DNA from: Candidatus Fermentithermobacillaceae bacterium | Lineage (GTDB): Bacteria; Bacillota; Sulfobacillia; Fermentithermobacillales; Fermentithermobacillaceae | Length of the DNA stretch: 36,715 nucleotides | NCBI GenBank assembly: GCA_012842425.1 | Contig: DUSU01000029.1 | Location: 1 to 36,715 of the forward strand | Direction of reading: 5' to 3' | Shown here: piece after piece, positions 9,866-19,147 of the stretch | How positions within the stretch are numbered: the stretch's first letter is position 1 | Layout: each line of letters opens with the position of its first letter | Notes under the pieces: generated by a model | What the model saw: the letters and a program-made list of their open reading frames with translations, nothing else | Database searches by the model: none | What the model was told of the DNA's origin: nothing | Translations under genes and position numbers: made by a program

Positions 9866-10660
9866 CTACCTCGGGAGTTCCGACTCCGGCCTGCCCCGCG
9901 GGTCATCCCGGGCCGGGGTGCCGAGGCTCATGAGCTCTCCCAGCGGCATAATCTCGTATCCTGCGGTCTTTAGGTTCGCGAGGACCATAGGCAGTGCCCC
10001 GGGAGTGTCGGGAGCCGAATCAGATGCGTGGAAGAGGAGGATGGCCCCTCTGAAGGCGTACCGTGAGACCCTCTCAACGATGTAGCTTACCCCGGGCCTC
10101 TGCCAGTCCCTGCTGTCGACAGACCATATTATCGTCTCATACCCGAGTTCCCTGGCGGTGAGCACGACCAGGTCGTTGTAGTCGCCGTTGGGGGGCCTGA
10201 AGTACTTGGGGCTCACGCCGCTCACGTTTACGAGGATGTCATGGGCCGACTGGATGTTCTCGCTTATCTCCTTTTTCGAGAGATGGCTCAGGTTGTCGTG
10301 CTCCTGACCGTGGCTTGCTATCTCGTGGCCTTCATCGACTATCCGTCTCACGATATCCTTGTAGTGCTTCGCCCACGGGCCCGAGAGGAAAAACGTGGCC
10401 TTTTGGTTGTGTTCCTTGAGGACATCGAGGACCTTGTCGGGCATCTCTTCGCCCCAGGAGATGTCGAACGTAAGCGCCACCGCCTTCCGTTCGGTATCAA
10501 CGTAGAACACGGGCATTTGGATATTTTGGGCCCCGGCAGTCGTGAGGTCGTACATGTCGACTACGGGCTTCACGGCGCGAGTCTTGAGCGCGATGAAAGC
10601 TGCCGCCACCCATAGGATAACGAGCAAACAGAGCAGAACCGTCCGCTTCTTTATAATCAT
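9866..10660 (-). CDS. pdaB: Polysaccharide deacetylase, PdaB-type sporulation protein
   Basis: NodB-homology carbohydrate esterase (CE4), 264 residues, with one N-terminal membrane anchor (residues about 7-26) placing the catalytic domain outside. Motifs in order: ALTFDISWGEEMPDKVL, where the usual TFDDGP is TFDISWG as in PdaB/YbaN; ATFFLSGPWAK; HEIASHGQEHDNL (metal-binding His pair); YFRPPNGDYND; and near the end ILLFHASDS with the catalytic-region His. PdaB is needed for spore cortex maintenance in Bacillus, so this gene supports a spore-forming host. The ATG is preceded by a G-rich run (GGGGGG, 9 bases upstream). The C-terminal 20 residues are polar and not conserved. Substrate is inferred from the family only. 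Confidence 0.88.
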   Translation of the reverse strand: MIIKKRTVLLCLLVILWVAAAFIALKTRAVKPVVDMYDLTTAGAQNIQMPVFYVDTERKAVALTFDISWGEEMPDKVLDVLKEHNQKATFFLSGPWAKHYKDIVRRIVDEGHEIASHGQEHDNLSHLSKKEISENIQSAHDILVNVSGVSPKYFRPPNGDYNDLVVLTARELGYETIIWSVDSRDWQRPGVSYIVERVSRYAFRGAILLFHASDSAPDTPGALPMVLANLKTAGYEIMPLGELMSLGTPARDDPRGRPESELPR

Positions 10661-10761: not shown

Positions 10762-10794
10762 TTAGAAAAGCAAAGACCCGGACAATGTCCGGGC
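10762..10794 (-). terminator. Intrinsic terminator of the 10.8-12.7 kb operon
   Basis: On the minus strand CCCGGAC-ATT-GTCCGGG (10777-10793) forms a perfect 7-bp stem with a three-base loop, followed by TCTTTGCTTTTCT. Stem, tight loop and T-rich tail directly after the last gene fit a rho-independent terminator. Confidence 0.85.
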
Positions 10795-10821: not shown

Positions 10822-11730
10822 CTACTTTGAAACTTCTTCCGCACGCTTCCGGTAGATGCCGAGGCCGGGCTTGTGATAGAGCCGCTCTCTGGGTTGTTTT
10901 TTTGTCTTGGGAATGACCACCGTCTTTCCGTCCGGCGTGACGGTCACTTCCGCGTCGACGACGCCCGACCTGGAACCCGACGCAGCCCGACTCTCGTAGG
11001 GTTGGTTTTTCTCGCTCTGGGCTTGGGATGCGTTTCTGGCCTTCATTATGTCGGCCAGCACGTTTAGCGCCAGCGTGATTATCCGTGGGTCTATGCCGAG
11101 TATCTGCTGAAACGGTGACGTAGGAGACTGTCCCGTAGGTTGGGCCGTCTGGTGCGAAGAGGCGCCCTCGGCGGTCTTCCTCTCGCCGCGGCCAGTCTCC
11201 TCACCGGAGGCCTTTTCTTCGGCGGATTCGGTGTCGCCCTGGGACTCTCCGCGGCCGGGCGCTTCTGCATCGGTGCTTCCGGTTCCTGCGTCATCTTGGC
11301 TGCCCGCGCCCCGAGTGCCGGAGGGCGAAGTGGCAGGTTCAGGCGTGGAGACGGACGGTCTGGATGATGCGGCCCTCGCCATTGTAAGCGCCGACAGTGA
11401 TCCCATGAGGGTGCCGATCAAGGACGGATCGATCCCGCCTTGCCCCTGGGTCCCTCCGAGAAGCTTTCCGGCCAAAGATATGATGGACGACATGAGGTCC
11501 GGCTCTTTGGGTTTTTCCGCCGCAGGCGTTCCTGAAGCGAGTGCCAAGGAACTAAGGAGGCCCATTGACGACTGGGCGCCCTGAGTGTCGCCGTAGAAGG
11601 AGAGGACGATCCCCAGGAGGTTCAGAAGTGCCAGGATACCGGCCTTTTCCCTCAGGGCCTTCTGATCTGATTCGGGACTGGAGAAAAGCACCGACCTGGC
11701 GATCTCTGATAGGGTCTTCTCAGTGTCCAT
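10822..11730 (-). CDS. Uncharacterised protein with long low-complexity acidic middle
   Basis: 302 residues, family not recognised. Residues about 1-125 are helical and Leu/Ala-rich, with hydrophobic segments AGILALLNLLGIVLSF and MGLLSSLALASG that could be membrane-associated or packed helices. Residues about 125-210 are low complexity (Ser, Glu, Gly, Thr, Ala). A second helical segment, ILGIDPRIITLALNVLADIMK, echoes an earlier one, GGIDPSLIGTLMGSLSALTM, suggesting a duplicated element. The tail is basic (LYHKPGLGIYRKRAEE). The start overlaps the stop of the YbaB-like gene by 11 bases, so the two are translationally coupled, and an intrinsic terminator follows. It is the last gene of a four-gene operon. 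A sporulation-related role is possible but not shown. Confidence 0.75.
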   Translation of the reverse strand: MDTEKTLSEIARSVLFSSPESDQKALREKAGILALLNLLGIVLSFYGDTQGAQSSMGLLSSLALASGTPAAEKPKEPDLMSSIISLAGKLLGGTQGQGGIDPSLIGTLMGSLSALTMARAASSRPSVSTPEPATSPSGTRGAGSQDDAGTGSTDAEAPGRGESQGDTESAEEKASGEETGRGERKTAEGASSHQTAQPTGQSPTSPFQQILGIDPRIITLALNVLADIMKARNASQAQSEKNQPYESRAASGSRSGVVDAEVTVTPDGKTVVIPKTKKQPRERLYHKPGLGIYRKRAEEVSK

Positions 11731-12070
11731 TGCCTTCAGTCCGTCCGAAGAAGTTCGCGAACTCAGGGGGGACCTGGCCTCCTATGACACCGCCCAGCTC
11801 GGTCTTCAGTATCTTCCTCGCTTCTTTAATGGCGCCGTTCACTGCCTCCACGATTAGTGATTCCAGCGTTCCGAGGTCGTAGGTTTTTTCTGACAGTTTT
11901 TCCCTGTCGATGTGGATTGAACGAATGTTGAACCAAATATCCCCCGTGGCCGTGACGAGGCCTCCGCCTGATTCTCCTTGCACCAACCTGTTTCTTAGCC
12001 CCGTAAGACGCGAGCTCACTTCGGACTCGATTCTCTCCATCTGCATAAGCAGGGCAGCCAGGTTTTGCAC
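11720..12070 (-). CDS. Divergent YbaB/EbfC-like nucleoid-associated family protein
   Basis: 116 residues: an N-terminal coiled helix (MQNLAALLMQMERIESEVSS), then a strand pair with VTATGDIWFNIRSIHIDREKL and a C-terminal helix LESLIVEAVNGAIKEARKIL. This is the layout of YbaB, where a V.G.G-type hairpin is followed by VxID and a helix with AVN.A..KA. It differs from ordinary YbaB by location (no dnaX or recR nearby) and by sequence, so a paralogue with a specialised role is likely. The start is GTG 12070, eight bases after GGAGGGG. It overlaps the next gene. DNA binding is inferred from the fold only. Confidence 0.7.
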   Translation of the reverse strand: MQNLAALLMQMERIESEVSSRLTGLRNRLVQGESGGGLVTATGDIWFNIRSIHIDREKLSEKTYDLGTLESLIVEAVNGAIKEARKILKTELGGVIGGQVPPEFANFFGRTEGNGH

Positions 12071-12138
12071 TTATTTACCCCTCCAGTCCTCACTACTTCA
12101 GCATCTTATGCGTGGACTCTCGGGAGGGGTGATACGGA

Positions 12139-12420
12139 TCATCTCCCTAGGGGCATCACTTTCGGAAGTGAAACTGCCAGTTCGCGCCGCAGCCTGATGC
12201 GCTTTCCAATGGGACTTCTGCCTAGCAAGATCCGGGGGCCTCCCCTTCTCTGGAAAAGCGGCTTTGCGGTCCAGTCCTGCCACAGGCCTTGCTTTTTGGG
12301 GGAATCCCCGGCTTCAGATGATACCGTCTTTGGGTCGAACGATCCGTTGGCAGCCAGAAGGAGAATCAAGATAAGGAACAGAGAAAACGGATTTGTGGCG
12401 TCGAAACCCAGTATCTTCAC
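12139..12420 (-). CDS. Small membrane-anchored protein with basic tail
   Basis: 93 residues starting at GTG 12420, whose GTGA overlaps the stop of the upstream gene by four bases. After MKILGFDATNPF comes one hydrophobic stretch, SLFLILILLLAA, then a basic hydrophilic tail. Short proteins with an NPF-plus-LFLILILLL core occur near sporulation genes in Clostridia; this is recollection, not a search result. The tail from about residue 55 is Arg-rich and of uncertain fold. Coding is supported mainly by the translational overlap. A 68-base gap with the ribosome site of the YbaB-like gene follows. Confidence 0.6.
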   Translation of the reverse strand: MKILGFDATNPFSLFLILILLLAANGSFDPKTVSSEAGDSPKKQGLWQDWTAKPLFQRRGGPRILLGRSPIGKRIRLRRELAVSLPKVMPLGR

Positions 12421-12719
12421 TCTGTTCCCCTCCCTATGCCGCCGGTCTCTGCCATTCTCTTGGCCAGGTAGTTCTCGAACTTAGCGCCCAGCCACGTGGC
12501 GGCGAGGATGAGCGACAGCGATACCGCTGAATCAAGCCTCTCGGCCAGGAGGCTCTGTGCTTTCTCGGCCATGGTCTCGATCTCGAGGGATTCGACCATC
12601 CCGCTCGTCTGCGAAAGATCCAGGAGCGTGTCTATTAGTTTCTGGCCTCTCTCGGCCGTAAAGGGCCTAAGCGCCGCGATTAGGTCCAAGATCTCTTTGG
12701 TAACCAGCCCGCTTGACAC
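12417..12719 (-). CDS. Uncharacterised small helical protein, first gene of a four-gene operon
   Basis: 100 residues, all-helical by appearance: EILDLIAALRPFTAERGQKL and IDTLLDLSQTSGMVESLEIE, then a more hydrophobic helix AVSLSLILAATWLGAKFENYL. No family recognised. GTG 12719 is chosen because a GGGGG run (12725-12729) lies five bases upstream; ATG 12749 has no ribosome site. Its stop overlaps the start of the next gene (GTGA). It is transcribed divergently from the dipeptidase gene across about 190 bases, which hold the presumed promoter; no convincing consensus was found there. Confidence 0.7.
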   Translation of the reverse strand: MSSGLVTKEILDLIAALRPFTAERGQKLIDTLLDLSQTSGMVESLEIETMAEKAQSLLAERLDSAVSLSLILAATWLGAKFENYLAKRMAETGGIGRGTE

Positions 12720-12907
12720 TGTTACCCCCTCTTCCTTCGTCGTGATCATGACATAATATGACCTCACCCCTAAAACGTTCCGTTGCCTCTGCCTGTATGA
12801 TGATGCCTTGAGGCAAACACGAGGGATCAAAAGGTAAACTCCTTCCAGGGGGAGAAACTAGGGAGGAGACGTGCGGCCTATTACGCGGTAAGAGAGGTGT
12901 TCCTTGT

Positions 12908-13953: not shown

Positions 13954-15528
13954 ATGAGAATTCTAGTGGCGATGAACGCATTTAAGGGGAGCCTCTCCGC
14001 AAGGGAGGCTTCATCGATTGTGGCCGGGGGGCTCCGAAAAGGATTTCGTGAAGCCAAGGTCATCGAGATGCCGCTGGCCGACGGCGGCGACGGGACCGTC
14101 CAGGTCTTGTGCGGGGGTCCAGCAGGCGAGATTGCTGAGGTAGAGGTAACGGGCCCTCTGGGGAAGCCGGTCAAGGCAGAGGTGGGCCTCTTGGATGGAG
14201 GGAAGACGGCGGTCATCGAGAGCGCCCAGGCTTGTGGCCTTGCCCTTCTCGTCGATGGACAACGGGATGTCCGCAGGGCCCAAAGCACGGGTGTCGGCGA
14301 ACTGATGCTCTGGGCCGTCCGGCGGGGAGCCAGGCGCCTGGTAGTAGGCATCGGCGGGACGGCCATGAACGACGGAGGCATCGGAGCCGTCCAGGCCGCG
14401 GGAGGAAAGGTCCTCGACGCGGACGGGCGTCAGGTGGGGCCCGGCATTACAGGACTCCTGGACGTTTCTTCTGTCTCGCGGGGCTCAATCCCTGAGGATT
14501 TCAAGGGCGTTGAGGTCATCGCGATAACCGATGTTCGTAATCCACTGGTCGGTCCCCATGGGGCGACCCGCGTCTACGGTCCTCAGAAGGGACTGGCGAG
14601 CGACGAGATCGAGGAAGTTGACGAAGCCATGCGCCGGTACGCAGCCATTTTGGGAAGGGACTTGGGCCAGGACCCATCCGACCTGCCGGGAGCAGGTGCC
14701 GGCGGTGGGCTTGCGGCCGCAATGGCAGCGTTCTTCGGGGCGAGATTTGAAAGCGGCTCTTGCTTTGTCATGAAGGAAACCGGCTTCTTCGAAGAACTCG
14801 GCTGCGCCGACCTTGTGGTCACGGGCGAAGGTTCCATTGACTCCCAAACGGTGCAGGGCAAAGTACCGTTTGCGGTTGCGGAAGCGGCTTATTGGATGGG
14901 AGTGCCCGTCATCGCGTTGGGAGGAGGCCTTGCCAGGGACGTGCTCTCGGGCTATCCTCCGGAGTTCGCGGCCTTGTTTTCGACAACGCTCCGGCCGGAA
15001 GGACTAAGTGAGGCGATGGCGAGCGCCCGGGAAAACCTCTTCTTCGCCGCGGAGCAGATCGGCAAGGCAGGCAGGGTGTTCGCTTCGTCGCGGGCGAGGC
15101 GGCAGGACTTCGCGGTAGGAGGCATTGTCGTAAGGGAGTCCGGAAGTGGACTTGAGGTGCTCCTCATCGAGGACCGCTGGGGGATGGTCGCGCCGCCTAA
15201 GGGCCATATGGAACCGGGAGAGACTCCCGAAGAGGCGGCGACGCGCGAGGTATATGAGGAAACGGGGATCCGTGTAGCGGTCGCAGGAGATGTAGGAGAG
15301 GTCAAGTACCGCTTTTTCGCTCAAGACGGAGAGGTAGTGGAGAAAGCCGTCAGGTACTTCCTGATGACTCCGGTGGGCGGCGAGCCCAGGCCTCAAGAAG
15401 GGGAAACCCAGAGAGTCATGTGGGTGAGCGCGAGAGATCTGCCCGGAATGAGGTGTTACAGGGACACTCTCGCCATAGTCAGGCGGGGGCTCAAAGTCTT
15501 CCGCGCCGGACAGGATTCGACTTTCTGA
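13954..15528 (+). CDS. Glycerate kinase fused to a C-terminal NUDIX hydrolase domain
   Basis: 524 residues in one open frame. Residues 1 to about 375 are a type-1 glycerate kinase (GlxK/GarK, PF02595): MRILVAMNAFKGSLSAREAS, MPLADGGDGTVQVL, GIGGTAMNDGGIGAVQAAG, GAGAGGGLAAAMAAFFGA and TGEGSIDSQTVQGKVPFAVA. It phosphorylates D-glycerate with ATP, usually at the 2-hydroxyl in this family. From about residue 385 begins a NUDIX fold, FAVGGIVVRESGSGLEVLLI, with a complete Nudix box (G-x5-E-x7-REVYEETGI, near bases 15204-15270) preceded by PPKGHMEPG, resembling diadenosine-polyphosphate and MutT-type hydrolases. Each part matches the usual length of its family, so this is a true fusion and not readthrough of a short linker. 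It starts two bases after the dipeptidase stop. Confidence 0.92.
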   Translation: MRILVAMNAFKGSLSAREASSIVAGGLRKGFREAKVIEMPLADGGDGTVQVLCGGPAGEIAEVEVTGPLGKPVKAEVGLLDGGKTAVIESAQACGLALLVDGQRDVRRAQSTGVGELMLWAVRRGARRLVVGIGGTAMNDGGIGAVQAAGGKVLDADGRQVGPGITGLLDVSSVSRGSIPEDFKGVEVIAITDVRNPLVGPHGATRVYGPQKGLASDEIEEVDEAMRRYAAILGRDLGQDPSDLPGAGAGGGLAAAMAAFFGARFESGSCFVMKETGFFEELGCADLVVTGEGSIDSQTVQGKVPFAVAEAAYWMGVPVIALGGGLARDVLSGYPPEFAALFSTTLRPEGLSEAMASARENLFFAAEQIGKAGRVFASSRARRQDFAVGGIVVRESGSGLEVLLIEDRWGMVAPPKGHMEPGETPEEAATREVYEETGIRVAVAGDVGEVKYRFFAQDGEVVEKAVRYFLMTPVGGEPRPQEGETQRVMWVSARDLPGMRCYRDTLAIVRRGLKVFRAGQDSTF

Positions 15529-15610: not shown

Positions 15611-15722
15611 TGAGTATGGGTGAATGCAAGCTATATGTCTGGCCGGAGCCGGGAGTTCCCGGGGCGCTCCTCAGCGGTTACAAGATGCGCGTGCAAATAC
15701 GTAGTGAAGGAGCGTGCCGGAT

Positions 15723-16484
15723 TTGGTCTACCGGGAACGTATGTTGGCGAGGCTACCCCGGCGGGTGGGCGTAAGCGTCTTCGTGAGTCGCCTTTTCTCC
15801 GGAGGCGTACGTGTTCTTGCAATCCCGCTGCTTACCTTGTTTATCGGCTGGTCTGCCTTATTTGCGATCCATGCCTACCAATACAGAGAAGAGTTCGTCT
15901 TCGTTACGATTGAGGAGTCCTCGTCCCAAGCCCTCGCGGCGTTGCCCCTTGGTTTGGAGAGGCTCACAGGGGTCTTCGTAGACTGTGAGAAAAGGTGCCT
16001 AGAACTCGAGAAAAAACCCCGGCTTTGGGGCGTTTCACTCGGAGCCTACTATTCGGCGTCTTCGCAAGGGATAGAGTTTGAGGAGTCCATCGACTTCTCA
16101 AGAGGAGGCAAGGTCACCATTCCGTTGGGCCGTCCCGTTTCCGTGCCTCTGCGGGACCTCTCCGGGAACATCGTGGAGCTCGTAGACAACTCGGCGAGGG
16201 TTGCAAGGGGCGATCTGGTCATTGAGGGTACGGAAAGGTCGGGCGTTGTCCGTTTCAGGTATGGGGGCGAATGCTTCTCTCTGGCGCCCGGCGAATCGTG
16301 GGCCGAACTCCTGGCCTTGGTGGACGGGACCGTGACCGAAGTGGACGAAGAGTCCTGGGAAGGCGCCGTCCAGGAGTACCTGGCTTCAGGGGTGCCGGTA
16401 ACCAGGATTGCTGTGTGCAACCGCGGGTTTTGGCCCAAGGCAGGCGTGCGCGCGCATGATAGCCGGGGAGGGGAGGTGTGGTGA
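15723..16484 (+). CDS. Uncharacterised single-pass membrane protein coupled to the pseudo-lipase gene
   Basis: About 253 residues: a basic N-terminus, one hydrophobic segment (VLAIPLLTLFIGWSALFAIH, about residues 30-49), and an extracytoplasmic domain of about 200 residues rich in beta-prone sequence, for example GKVTIPLGRPVSVPLRDLSG and SGVVRFRYGGECFSLAPGE. A Cys pair (DCEKRCLELEKK) and later single Cys residues may form disulfides outside the cell. No family recognised. The start is uncertain: AAGGAG (15707-15712) best suits TTG 15723, while GTG 15714 and ATG 15741 are alternatives. The stop overlaps the GTG of the next gene by four bases, so the two are very likely partners. Confidence 0.75.
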   Translation: MVYRERMLARLPRRVGVSVFVSRLFSGGVRVLAIPLLTLFIGWSALFAIHAYQYREEFVFVTIEESSSQALAALPLGLERLTGVFVDCEKRCLELEKKPRLWGVSLGAYYSASSQGIEFEESIDFSRGGKVTIPLGRPVSVPLRDLSGNIVELVDNSARVARGDLVIEGTERSGVVRFRYGGECFSLAPGESWAELLALVDGTVTEVDEESWEGAVQEYLASGVPVTRIAVCNRGFWPKAGVRAHDSRGGEVW

Positions 16485-19147
16485 GACTCCGTGTGAGACT
16501 ATGCTGCGTTCTCTTCATCGCCCTTGTGCTGGCTTTAGGCGGGGTCCCTGCCGGGGCACGCGGGGCTATTTCGCCGGGGCTCATCCGAGCGAGTGAAGCC
16601 TGCGCCAAGGCCGTCATGGCAGAAGCCCGAGTGGAGCCCAGGCCTGTCGTCATAATAGACGGGCCCTCCTTGGCCCGATACCTTGAAACGGTGGGATACA
16701 CGAGGGGTAAGGACCTCTTCGAGGTAAGCGTGGGCGAACTGAATGACCTGGAGAGCGGAGCCCTGCACGTTTCAGTAGCCATTAGGGAAGCGCTCTCCGG
16801 GGCGGGGCCGGGAAAAGCCGGCGCTGAAGTCGAATGCGACATCGTGGCCGCCGGGCTGCCGGGCGTGGTTGTCAGGTACGCCTTGGAAAAGGGCTACCTC
16901 AGCGACCTCAGAGTGGTGAATCTCGTCATGGCGGCGTCCCCAAACCGGGGCACCTTCCTTGCCGGAGTCCTGAAATCAGCCCTCGAGCTGGCGCGCCAGG
17001 AATCCATCCTCGAGCGACAGACGCGTGCCGAGAGGTTCCTGCCTTCGCTCAAGGACATGTTCGGTGACGGCGAGGGGCCCGTTTCACTTAAGGAGCTGAC
17101 CAAAGCCCAGTCCCTGAAGCCTCCCGAGTGGGAAGATGAGGCTTCCTGGATCTCCACGAGGTCCACTACCCTATGGGAACCGTTGTACGCAGAATACGTG
17201 AAAAACCGTTTCCTAGCGCTTCCCTATGTACCCGCCCAGTCGCCGAAAGAGACGTTCGCGGGTTGGGTGAGGAGAACCCTGCCGGATGTCTGGAAGCGGC
17301 TTATCGTCGAGGCCGAATGGCCGGCGTCCAAAGCGCAGAGGCTCTCTCTGCCTTACTACGAGTGCCTGGCTATGGAGGTGGCCAGGAACCAGTATGTCAT
17401 GAGGACGGCATCAAAAGGCAGCTTAGTGTCGAGCCTTCTCAAGGACCCCATCATTCCGAAGGACTGGAGAGAAGCGGTGGTCCACTACGGGACGAAACTC
17501 CTCATGCACTACGCCGGGAAAGCCCTCATCACGCTTAAGGCCTACGTCCAGGAGCTCATCGCTCGTGAAGCGGTCGAACTCACAGGGCTGGGTTCCGGAC
17601 CTGATTCTCCCCTTCTATCGGGGCTTATCAAAGAAGACATTCTCATAAACCTCGGCACATCTTCGTCCAAGCGATTTGAGCGCATCCCGGCCAACCTGGC
17701 GCTTCAGGAGCTCAACCGCTCGTCTCAAGCTTCCGCCAACCGGCGAGATACCAGGTATGTGTCGGTCCTGTCCAAACTCGCCAACCCTTGGGCCCTCATT
17801 TGGCCCGAGCTCGGGCCCAACGACAGCCTCCTTGAAGTAGACTGTGGCGTCCCTCCGGCGGGCACCAAAGACCTAATATTCGTCCTGAGCGGCGTATTGA
17901 GGCTTCCCGGAAAGCACGTGCTGGATGACCAGAAAGCCCAGGAGTATGTGGCAAAGGTGCTGCTGGAAGACGTTGAGACAAGACCTTCGCAGGCTTCTTC
18001 GCTATCCGCCGTCTATGTCTCAAGCTGGAGACCCGCCTACTGCGATGTCCGGGGAGCCTCAAAGGTGACTCTCGGTATAACTGAACTCCCACCAGGGTGG
18101 CAGTGCCAGGTGTGGGAGGAGTCCTATGGGACTTTCCAGACAGGCGAAGAAGCAGCGAGGTGTGTTCAAGGGGTCATGAGGGGGTTCGACCGCGGAGGCA
18201 CTCATCTGGTGCACCTCACCCCGGGCACCGAACGCTTGGGTTTTCGTCTTGTGAGGAGCGGTCCCCCAAATCCGGTCGCAGGCAATACGGTGACGTCGGC
18301 TTTCGCTCAAGAGGTGCTCGTCAGGGTGTTCGTGTCGGCGTCCGGTGGAAATGCGCCTGAGACAGGGGAAGAAGGAGATCCTCCCGGACAGGAAGGGCCT
18401 CCAGAGCCGGAAGACCCACCGGAAGACCCAAGAGAAACGCAGTCGCCCGGTCAGGGCGGGCTTCCAGGACCGGAAGAGGAGGCTGAGCTGCCCGATGAAC
18501 CTCCTGAGGAGTTGCCTGGCGGGTTCTCGGGTGAGCTTCCCGGGGACTCGCCCGAGGAGTTTCCTGAGGACTTGCCGACCGTCCGGGTTGTATACCGGTC
18601 CAAGCACACGACGCTGAAGAAACCGAAAGAAACCTTCCACGATCACTGGATCCTGGATTACGGCGACGAGTTGCGGGAGACAATCCCCGGTCATGTGTCG
18701 CTGGCCGCCGACCACACGTTTGAGTCGCCGGGGAGTTACTCTGTAACTGCAGAGTCGTATACAGGAGAGGGCAAACTCTTGTACCGGAAGACGTGGCACG
18801 TAAGCGTTGTACTCTCCGGGGAGACGCACAGGTTTGAGTGTCAAAGCGTAGCTCCCGTAGGCGTCGAGATTGCGGTCACAGGCCCAAAGAAATGGGTTAC
18901 GGGGAAAGTCGCGGTCTTCTCGGTGGGAGCCAAAATCGACCTTCCTCCCAACGCCGAACTCGTATCGGTCAAGTTCGACCCGGGCGAGATGTTCGGAGTC
19001 ATATGGGAGCGGGCGGGAGATTTTATAGTGGGAGCCGCGGCTTCAATCATTGTTAAATACTCATTGGAGGATGCTTGTATAGAAATAGAGAACGTTTTCC
19101 TGAAAGAAGTGCCTGTTACGGTGCTCACAACTGGTGTGACTATGTAG
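16481..19147 (+). CDS. Secreted lipase-like protein lacking the catalytic serine, with Pro/Glu-rich linker and PKD-like domain
   Basis: 888 residues. An N-terminal signal peptide (RLRVRL then CCVLFIALVLALGGVPAGARG) indicates export. Residues about 55-170 trace the start of an alpha/beta-hydrolase of the lipase/PGAP1 type: PVVIIDGPSLARYLETVGY in place of PVVxxHG..., and CDIVAAGLPGVVVRYALEKG aligned with the usual D-x-V-x-HSMGG-x-VARY, followed by NLVMAASPNRGT. The nucleophile position is G125 instead of Ser. A large helical middle region of unknown type follows. Residues about 622-700 are a Pro/Glu/Gly-rich linker. Residues about 703-780 resemble a PKD domain (WILDYGDEL, HTFESPGSYSVTAESYT). 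GTG 16481 overlaps the previous stop and follows a GGGGAGGGGAGG run. Confidence 0.8.
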   Translation: MRLRVRLCCVLFIALVLALGGVPAGARGAISPGLIRASEACAKAVMAEARVEPRPVVIIDGPSLARYLETVGYTRGKDLFEVSVGELNDLESGALHVSVAIREALSGAGPGKAGAEVECDIVAAGLPGVVVRYALEKGYLSDLRVVNLVMAASPNRGTFLAGVLKSALELARQESILERQTRAERFLPSLKDMFGDGEGPVSLKELTKAQSLKPPEWEDEASWISTRSTTLWEPLYAEYVKNRFLALPYVPAQSPKETFAGWVRRTLPDVWKRLIVEAEWPASKAQRLSLPYYECLAMEVARNQYVMRTASKGSLVSSLLKDPIIPKDWREAVVHYGTKLLMHYAGKALITLKAYVQELIAREAVELTGLGSGPDSPLLSGLIKEDILINLGTSSSKRFERIPANLALQELNRSSQASANRRDTRYVSVLSKLANPWALIWPELGPNDSLLEVDCGVPPAGTKDLIFVLSGVLRLPGKHVLDDQKAQEYVAKVLLEDVETRPSQASSLSAVYVSSWRPAYCDVRGASKVTLGITELPPGWQCQVWEESYGTFQTGEEAARCVQGVMRGFDRGGTHLVHLTPGTERLGFRLVRSGPPNPVAGNTVTSAFAQEVLVRVFVSASGGNAPETGEEGDPPGQEGPPEPEDPPEDPRETQSPGQGGLPGPEEEAELPDEPPEELPGGFSGELPGDSPEEFPEDLPTVRVVYRSKHTTLKKPKETFHDHWILDYGDELRETIPGHVSLAADHTFESPGSYSVTAESYTGEGKLLYRKTWHVSVVLSGETHRFECQSVAPVGVEIAVTGPKKWVTGKVAVFSVGAKIDLPPNAELVSVKFDPGEMFGVIWERAGDFIVGAAASIIVKYSLEDACIEIENVFLKEVPVTVLTTGVTM

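Follow-up and report, generated by a model that had tools for sequence, protein, structure and literature searches.

A four-gene operon of Fermentithermobacillales with a second, divergent YbaB-like protein, and its link to sporulation

The locus and its conservation within the order

The window, a 36,715-nucleotide stretch of Candidatus Fermentithermobacillaceae DNA (contig DUSU01000029.1), contains a compact operon of four minus-strand genes, here called g1 to g4. Gene g1 (12417..12719) starts with GTG and encodes 100 residues. Its open reading frame, called mechanically, extends to 12830, but a start is found at 12719 in 14/14 orthologues. It overlaps g2 (12139..12420, 93 residues) by 4 bases, and a gap of 68 bases separates g2 from g3 (11720..12070, 116 residues), which in turn overlaps g4 (10822..11730, 302 residues) by 11 bases. 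An intrinsic-terminator-like hairpin with a T tract, on the same strand, lies 3' of g4 (10776..10794). This layout, with its two overlaps and its terminator, had been described in the first-pass annotation of the sequence and was borne out. Downstream lies a gene for a PdaB-like polysaccharide deacetylase (9866..10660, minus strand), which scores 225.2 bits against TIGR02764, slightly below the cut-off of 237.4. The upstream flank is a divergent gene for an M19 membrane dipeptidase (PF01244; 12908..13951, plus strand). It is followed by a single open reading frame of 524 residues (13954-15528), a fusion of glycerate kinase with a C-terminal NUDIX domain, and then by two adjacent, overlapping frames of 256 and 889 residues (15714-16484 and 16478-19147) that have no Pfam match at 1e-5. 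An Rfam search of the whole window gave no match.

The g3 protein was used as a query against 61 genomes, including 17 of the order Fermentithermobacillales. Within the order, 14 of the 17 genomes gave strong matches, with at least 61% identity. At all 14 loci g1, g3 and g4 were recovered by tblastn, pdaB is the next gene downstream and the M19 gene is divergent upstream. The g2 gene was recovered by tblastn in 6 of the 14 loci at E <=0.01 (a search of the same type on another data set adds L007, at 0.004) and was assigned in all 14 by its position and motif. The order and strand of all four genes are kept throughout. Purifying selection acts on each of the four, with dN/dS between 0.02 and 0.34 in 20 pairwise comparisons, in some of which dS is saturated. 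Because of the synteny in 14/14 loci and the purifying selection, the operon is taken to be more than a chance arrangement.

The element TCATATTATG (12752..12761, minus strand) is identical in the 14 orthologous loci and is the sole 10-mer common to all 14 regions upstream of g1. It is a palindrome with an odd centre, CATA-T-TATG, and could be promoter-like or operator-like; a standard sigma-70 promoter scan gave no match. The element is rare: the four whole genomes searched contain 2, 3, 4 and 1 copies of it and none of the reversed control. Its invariance, palindromic form and rarity are what would be expected if the operon were a regulatory module in which g3 controls its own divergent promoter by binding specifically to TCATATTATG. 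This is very improbable, however: the element could just as well serve a sporulation sigma factor as its -10 element, and its other genomic copies, read by eye, have no common spore-gene context.

A divergent YbaB and its partner proteins

The product of g3 shares its fold, its family score and the AxNxA core with the YbaB/EbfC family, in agreement with the original YbaB-like call. It matches PF02575 with an E value of 3.3e-13 and 50.1 bits, which passes the cut-off of 25.5. Its score against the NCBIfam equivalog TIGR00103, 43.0 bits, is below the cut-off of 49.45, and the protein is therefore not filed as a YbaB/EbfC equivalog. The AlphaFold model (pLDDT 83) has the alpha-beta-beta-beta-alpha fold of the YbaB tweezer subunit. 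The best Foldseek matches of this model in the Protein Data Bank, 1j8b, 1ybx and 1pug, are YbaB structures, and profile searches match the same entries.

Unlike an ordinary member of the family, g3 lies away from dnaX-recR, as the first-pass annotation had noticed, and is placed between the M19 gene and pdaB. A canonical dnaX-ybaB-recR arrangement, in which the genes beside ybaB are presumably dnaX and recR, as named from their sequences, is present on contig C22 of the same genome. The canonical copy is a distinct gene, which rules out that g3 is simply the dnaX-linked YbaB. A PF02575 search of 24 genomes found exactly two copies in 18 of them. This search can miss copies, as a control with Bacillus subtilis, which has a YbaB, gave no match. 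Only the canonical copy was found in G005, a non-sporulating relative. In five genomes (G030, G041, G388, G411 and G496) the module copy alone was detected; the canonical one may have been missed by the search, lie on contigs absent from the assembly or have been truly lost.

One branch, with support 89/90, parts 32 canonical from 32 module YbaBs in an unrooted tree built from 64 sequences over 111 columns; several module rows are long, so that a long-branch effect is possible. The AxNxA core residues are retained in the module YbaBs, and helix 1 has diverged. Two lysines of helix 1, each conserved in 91% of the canonical proteins, are found in 3% and 28% of the module proteins, and a glutamine present in all canonical copies is kept in 28%. 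A lysine in the C-terminal helix falls from 84% to 16%. Helix 3 is less acidic in the module copies, with a mean charge of -0.66 compared to -3.12 in the canonical ones. In Borrelia EbfC, according to a review, mutations in helix 1 or helix 3 abolish DNA binding, and N77 matters for dimerization (PMC9610160). With most of these conserved basic and polar helix-1 residues gone, DNA binding by g3 is not to be assumed. Judged from its sequence, g3 would be a retained dimer with an altered arm surface, which probably binds g4, membrane partners or both.

A different role would follow if g3 still bound DNA. Together with g4, g1 and g2 it could then tether or compact the chromosome at the inner spore membrane, as an organizer of the forespore nucleoid. 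YbaB/EbfC proteins bind and compact DNA, as described in PMC8581549, the reduced acidity of helix 3 would suit such a role, and the module is linked to sporulation, as described below. Nevertheless, an organizer of this kind is unlikely, given that the canonical helix-1 lysines and glutamine and the C-terminal-helix lysine are mostly lost, and that the recurrent neighbors of the module are envelope and germination genes. The first-pass annotation had put forward, as a hypothesis, a link between a nucleoid-type protein and a membrane-associated partner.

The three partner proteins g1, g2 and g4 have no acceptable match in Pfam or NCBIfam. The g1 product is a small helical protein with an 'ALRPF' motif and a hydrophobic C-terminal segment, a weak one in the protein encoded by the window. 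The g2 product has an N-terminal hydrophobic core, NPFSLFLILILLLAA. The suggestion that the operon encodes a small anchored protein holds well for g2, for which 14/14 orthologues pass the KD19 threshold of 1.6, and less well for g1, for which 9/14 do. The first helix of g4 is also hydrophobic in 12/14 orthologues. YhaL and YjcZ are examples of tiny hydrophobic spore proteins. Like them, g2 is very short, has a single hydrophobic core and belongs to a sporulation locus; unlike them, g2 and its relatives match no family. Other proteins of 35-57 residues with a single hydrophobic core are found around the module in other genomes (L191, L192, L193, L198, L206 and L207), with no confident family match; one such tiny neighbor has a sub-threshold match to Spore_YhaL, with an E value of 0.053.

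The g4 product has a C-terminal HKPGxGI motif and is predicted, at low confidence (mean pLDDT 53), to consist of separate helices around a disordered, low-complexity middle. Searches of Protein Data Bank sequences with g1 or g4 gave only weak matches and matches to designed repeat proteins; the strongest, of g4 with an engineered protein at 1.3e-7, was taken to reflect composition. Homology between g1 and g4 was also considered and is not supported by hhalign, although local matches to a g4 profile occur in some g1 genes from other families.

The hydrophobic segments of g1 and g2 would also fit a role of g3, by analogy, as a helper for making or inserting membrane proteins during sporulation, either g1 and g2 themselves or germinant receptors. 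The review cited above reports that E. coli YbaB raises the yields of co-expressed membrane proteins (PMC9610160). Such a helper would leave g4 unexplained, and we regard it as distinctly unlikely.

Relatives of the module in other families

A profile of g1 found relatives in 20/154 genomes of the class, of which six are not members of the order, whereas the order-specific g4 profile, A4, matched 14/154. Five of the six loci outside the order have both a YbaB gene and a g4-like gene as neighbors; the sixth, in G061, has g4 and no YbaB was seen there. In most of these loci the g1 protein carries NA[FY]xLFLILILLLL at its C-terminal end, a core that in the order belongs to the separate g2 protein. 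Among 398 phylum genomes, the extended g1 profile matched 76. The module had been proposed to be conserved, and its genes do co-occur elsewhere, both at the 14 loci of the order and at module loci of other families. The operon is not, therefore, a curiosity of one lineage, since the g1 profile reached other families in which a YbaB and a g4-like gene lie at the locus.

Forty-six distant loci were compared, of which 39 come from the 73 phylum matches not in the order, six are the class loci described above and one is from G024; these loci are mutually related. A YbaB gene is present in 29 of them and a g4 gene in 35. Where YbaB is present, g4 follows it directly on the same strand in 27 of 29 loci. 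YbaB is absent from 17/46 loci and is therefore not obligatory for the module. A profile of the distant g4 genes, A7, matches g4 in 4 of the 14 genomes of the order, with E values of 3e-4 to 2e-3, and hhalign aligned A4 with A7 over 21 columns with a probability of 90.8. These sequence comparisons give moderate support to homology between the g4 of the order and the distant g4.

Association with sporulation and a possible role

In the order, the module is found in all 14 SpoIVA-positive genomes and in none of the three that are SpoIVA-negative. In one module-bearing genome, G001, SpoIVA is a contig-end fragment below the cut-off. SpoIIIAE is present in 13 of these 14 genomes, with none in G012, which is 80% complete. 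The three genomes that lack the module have no SpoIVA, no SpoIIIAE and no match to the window's PdaB, the presence of which was checked by query in 3 of the 14 module-bearing genomes. The three belong to one genus and so probably represent one loss. Candidatus F. carboniphilus, a close relative, was predicted to sporulate by its describers (PMC10215811).

The same association extends outwards. All 20 g1-bearing genomes of the class are SpoIVA-positive, compared to 137/154 overall. In the phylum sample, SpoIVA was found in 73 of 76 g1-bearing genomes and in 263 of the remaining 322 (Fisher p 0.0012, from counts tallied by eye and with a test that ignores kinship). The module appears to be nearly restricted to spore-formers. 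Two of the three g1-bearing genomes without SpoIVA are 75% and 61% complete, and in the third the g1 match is borderline, with an E value of 0.0092. In most SpoIVA-positive genomes the phylum profile search detected no g1.

The neighbors of the module point in the same direction. The genes sleB and/or ypeB are found near the module in 18 of the 46 distant loci, in eight families, and in none of 20 control loci, which are the surroundings of canonical ybaB (p 0.0006). Any of the markers SleB, YpeB, GerA, GerC, SpoIIR and SPOCS is found in 26/46 distant loci and 1/20 controls; these markers were picked after the first 26 of the 46 loci had been viewed. In the second batch of 20 loci, fetched after the choice of markers and from families largely already met, sleB/ypeB are present in 10 and any marker in 13. 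Pfam searches on chosen neighbors confirmed SleB, YpeB, SpoIIR, SipL/SPOCS, GerA, a spore permease and GerAC. Three control loci had given SipL profile matches; the one in L283 is LysM plus M23 by Pfam, and SipL was recounted without LysM. The module proteins have no visible sequence relation to the SleB-YpeB cortex-lysis pair, and the neighbor in the window is PdaB-like rather than sleB/ypeB. Genes for spore cortex lysis and for germinant receptors, SpoIIR and SipL-type coat proteins are repeatedly found beside the module. A guess made from the single locus, that the operon might be linked to sporulation, is supported, and the link to the spore is strong.

These data bear on whether g3 is an ordinary housekeeping YbaB paralog that merely lies near spore genes. 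Such a paralog would pass PF02575 and have the YbaB fold, as g3 does. It is hardly probable, however, because the module copy was lost along with sporulation in one genus (genus g3) while G005 keeps the canonical copy, because the module YbaBs are split from the canonical ones in the tree, and because module and spore genes recur together in several families.

We tentatively favor the reading in which the operon represents, in the Fermentithermobacillales, an old and undescribed sporulation or germination module of this phylum, built on a repurposed YbaB dimer and probably located at a spore membrane. The gene content, the synteny, the near-restriction to spore-formers and the recurrent spore-gene neighbors are its observed part. 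As for the mechanism, we infer that expression of the module would take place in the spore as it develops. The YbaB-like protein would be a dimer that has departed from its housekeeping role, and g4, with its many helices and partial disorder, may be its partner, as the g4 gene almost always lies directly after the YbaB gene. The hydrophobic segments of g1 and g2 would place the assembly at a spore membrane, where it might help to assemble or position the machinery of spore maturation or germination. It is conceivable, if rather doubtful, that an ancient YbaB duplicate was recruited with the three unnamed families into a spore-membrane scaffold, possibly one tethering the chromosome, that sets up cortex lysis or germination in this phylum.

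The YbaB fold was known already; the new part is a sporulation-linked YbaB lineage with three unnamed partner families. The literature on YbaB/EbfC, on sporulation, on sleB/ypeB neighborhoods and on the spore proteomes of Moorella and Desulfotomaculum, surveyed by titles and abstract openings, showed no sporulation-linked second YbaB. A text look-up for ybaB, yaaK and ebfC in PMC3533761 found none, and the word 'paralog' was not found in the EbfC/YbaB review (PMC9610160). It is of significance that the module recurs over many families of a spore-forming phylum and that three of its protein families are nameless in Pfam and NCBIfam. Should the module act in the spore, some of the sporulation or germination program of bacteria other than the model organisms would still lack names. 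YbaB, the role of which is unsettled, would gain a setting specific to this lineage, apart from the dnaX-recR copy, in which the phenotypes of spore formation, heat resistance and germination can be tested.

Several other families occur beside the module in the distant loci. One, unnamed and without a Pfam match, has a motif like YNPFSQR or YSNPxNQR and travels with the module in L146 (6281-6754) and L204 (5943-6341). Across L143-L148, L191-L210 and L251-L270, trypsin-like proteases are found beside the module in 16/46 loci and S8 subtilases in 7/46, with 0/20 in the control loci. Patatin-like phospholipases lie there in 17/46 loci and in 0/20 control loci.
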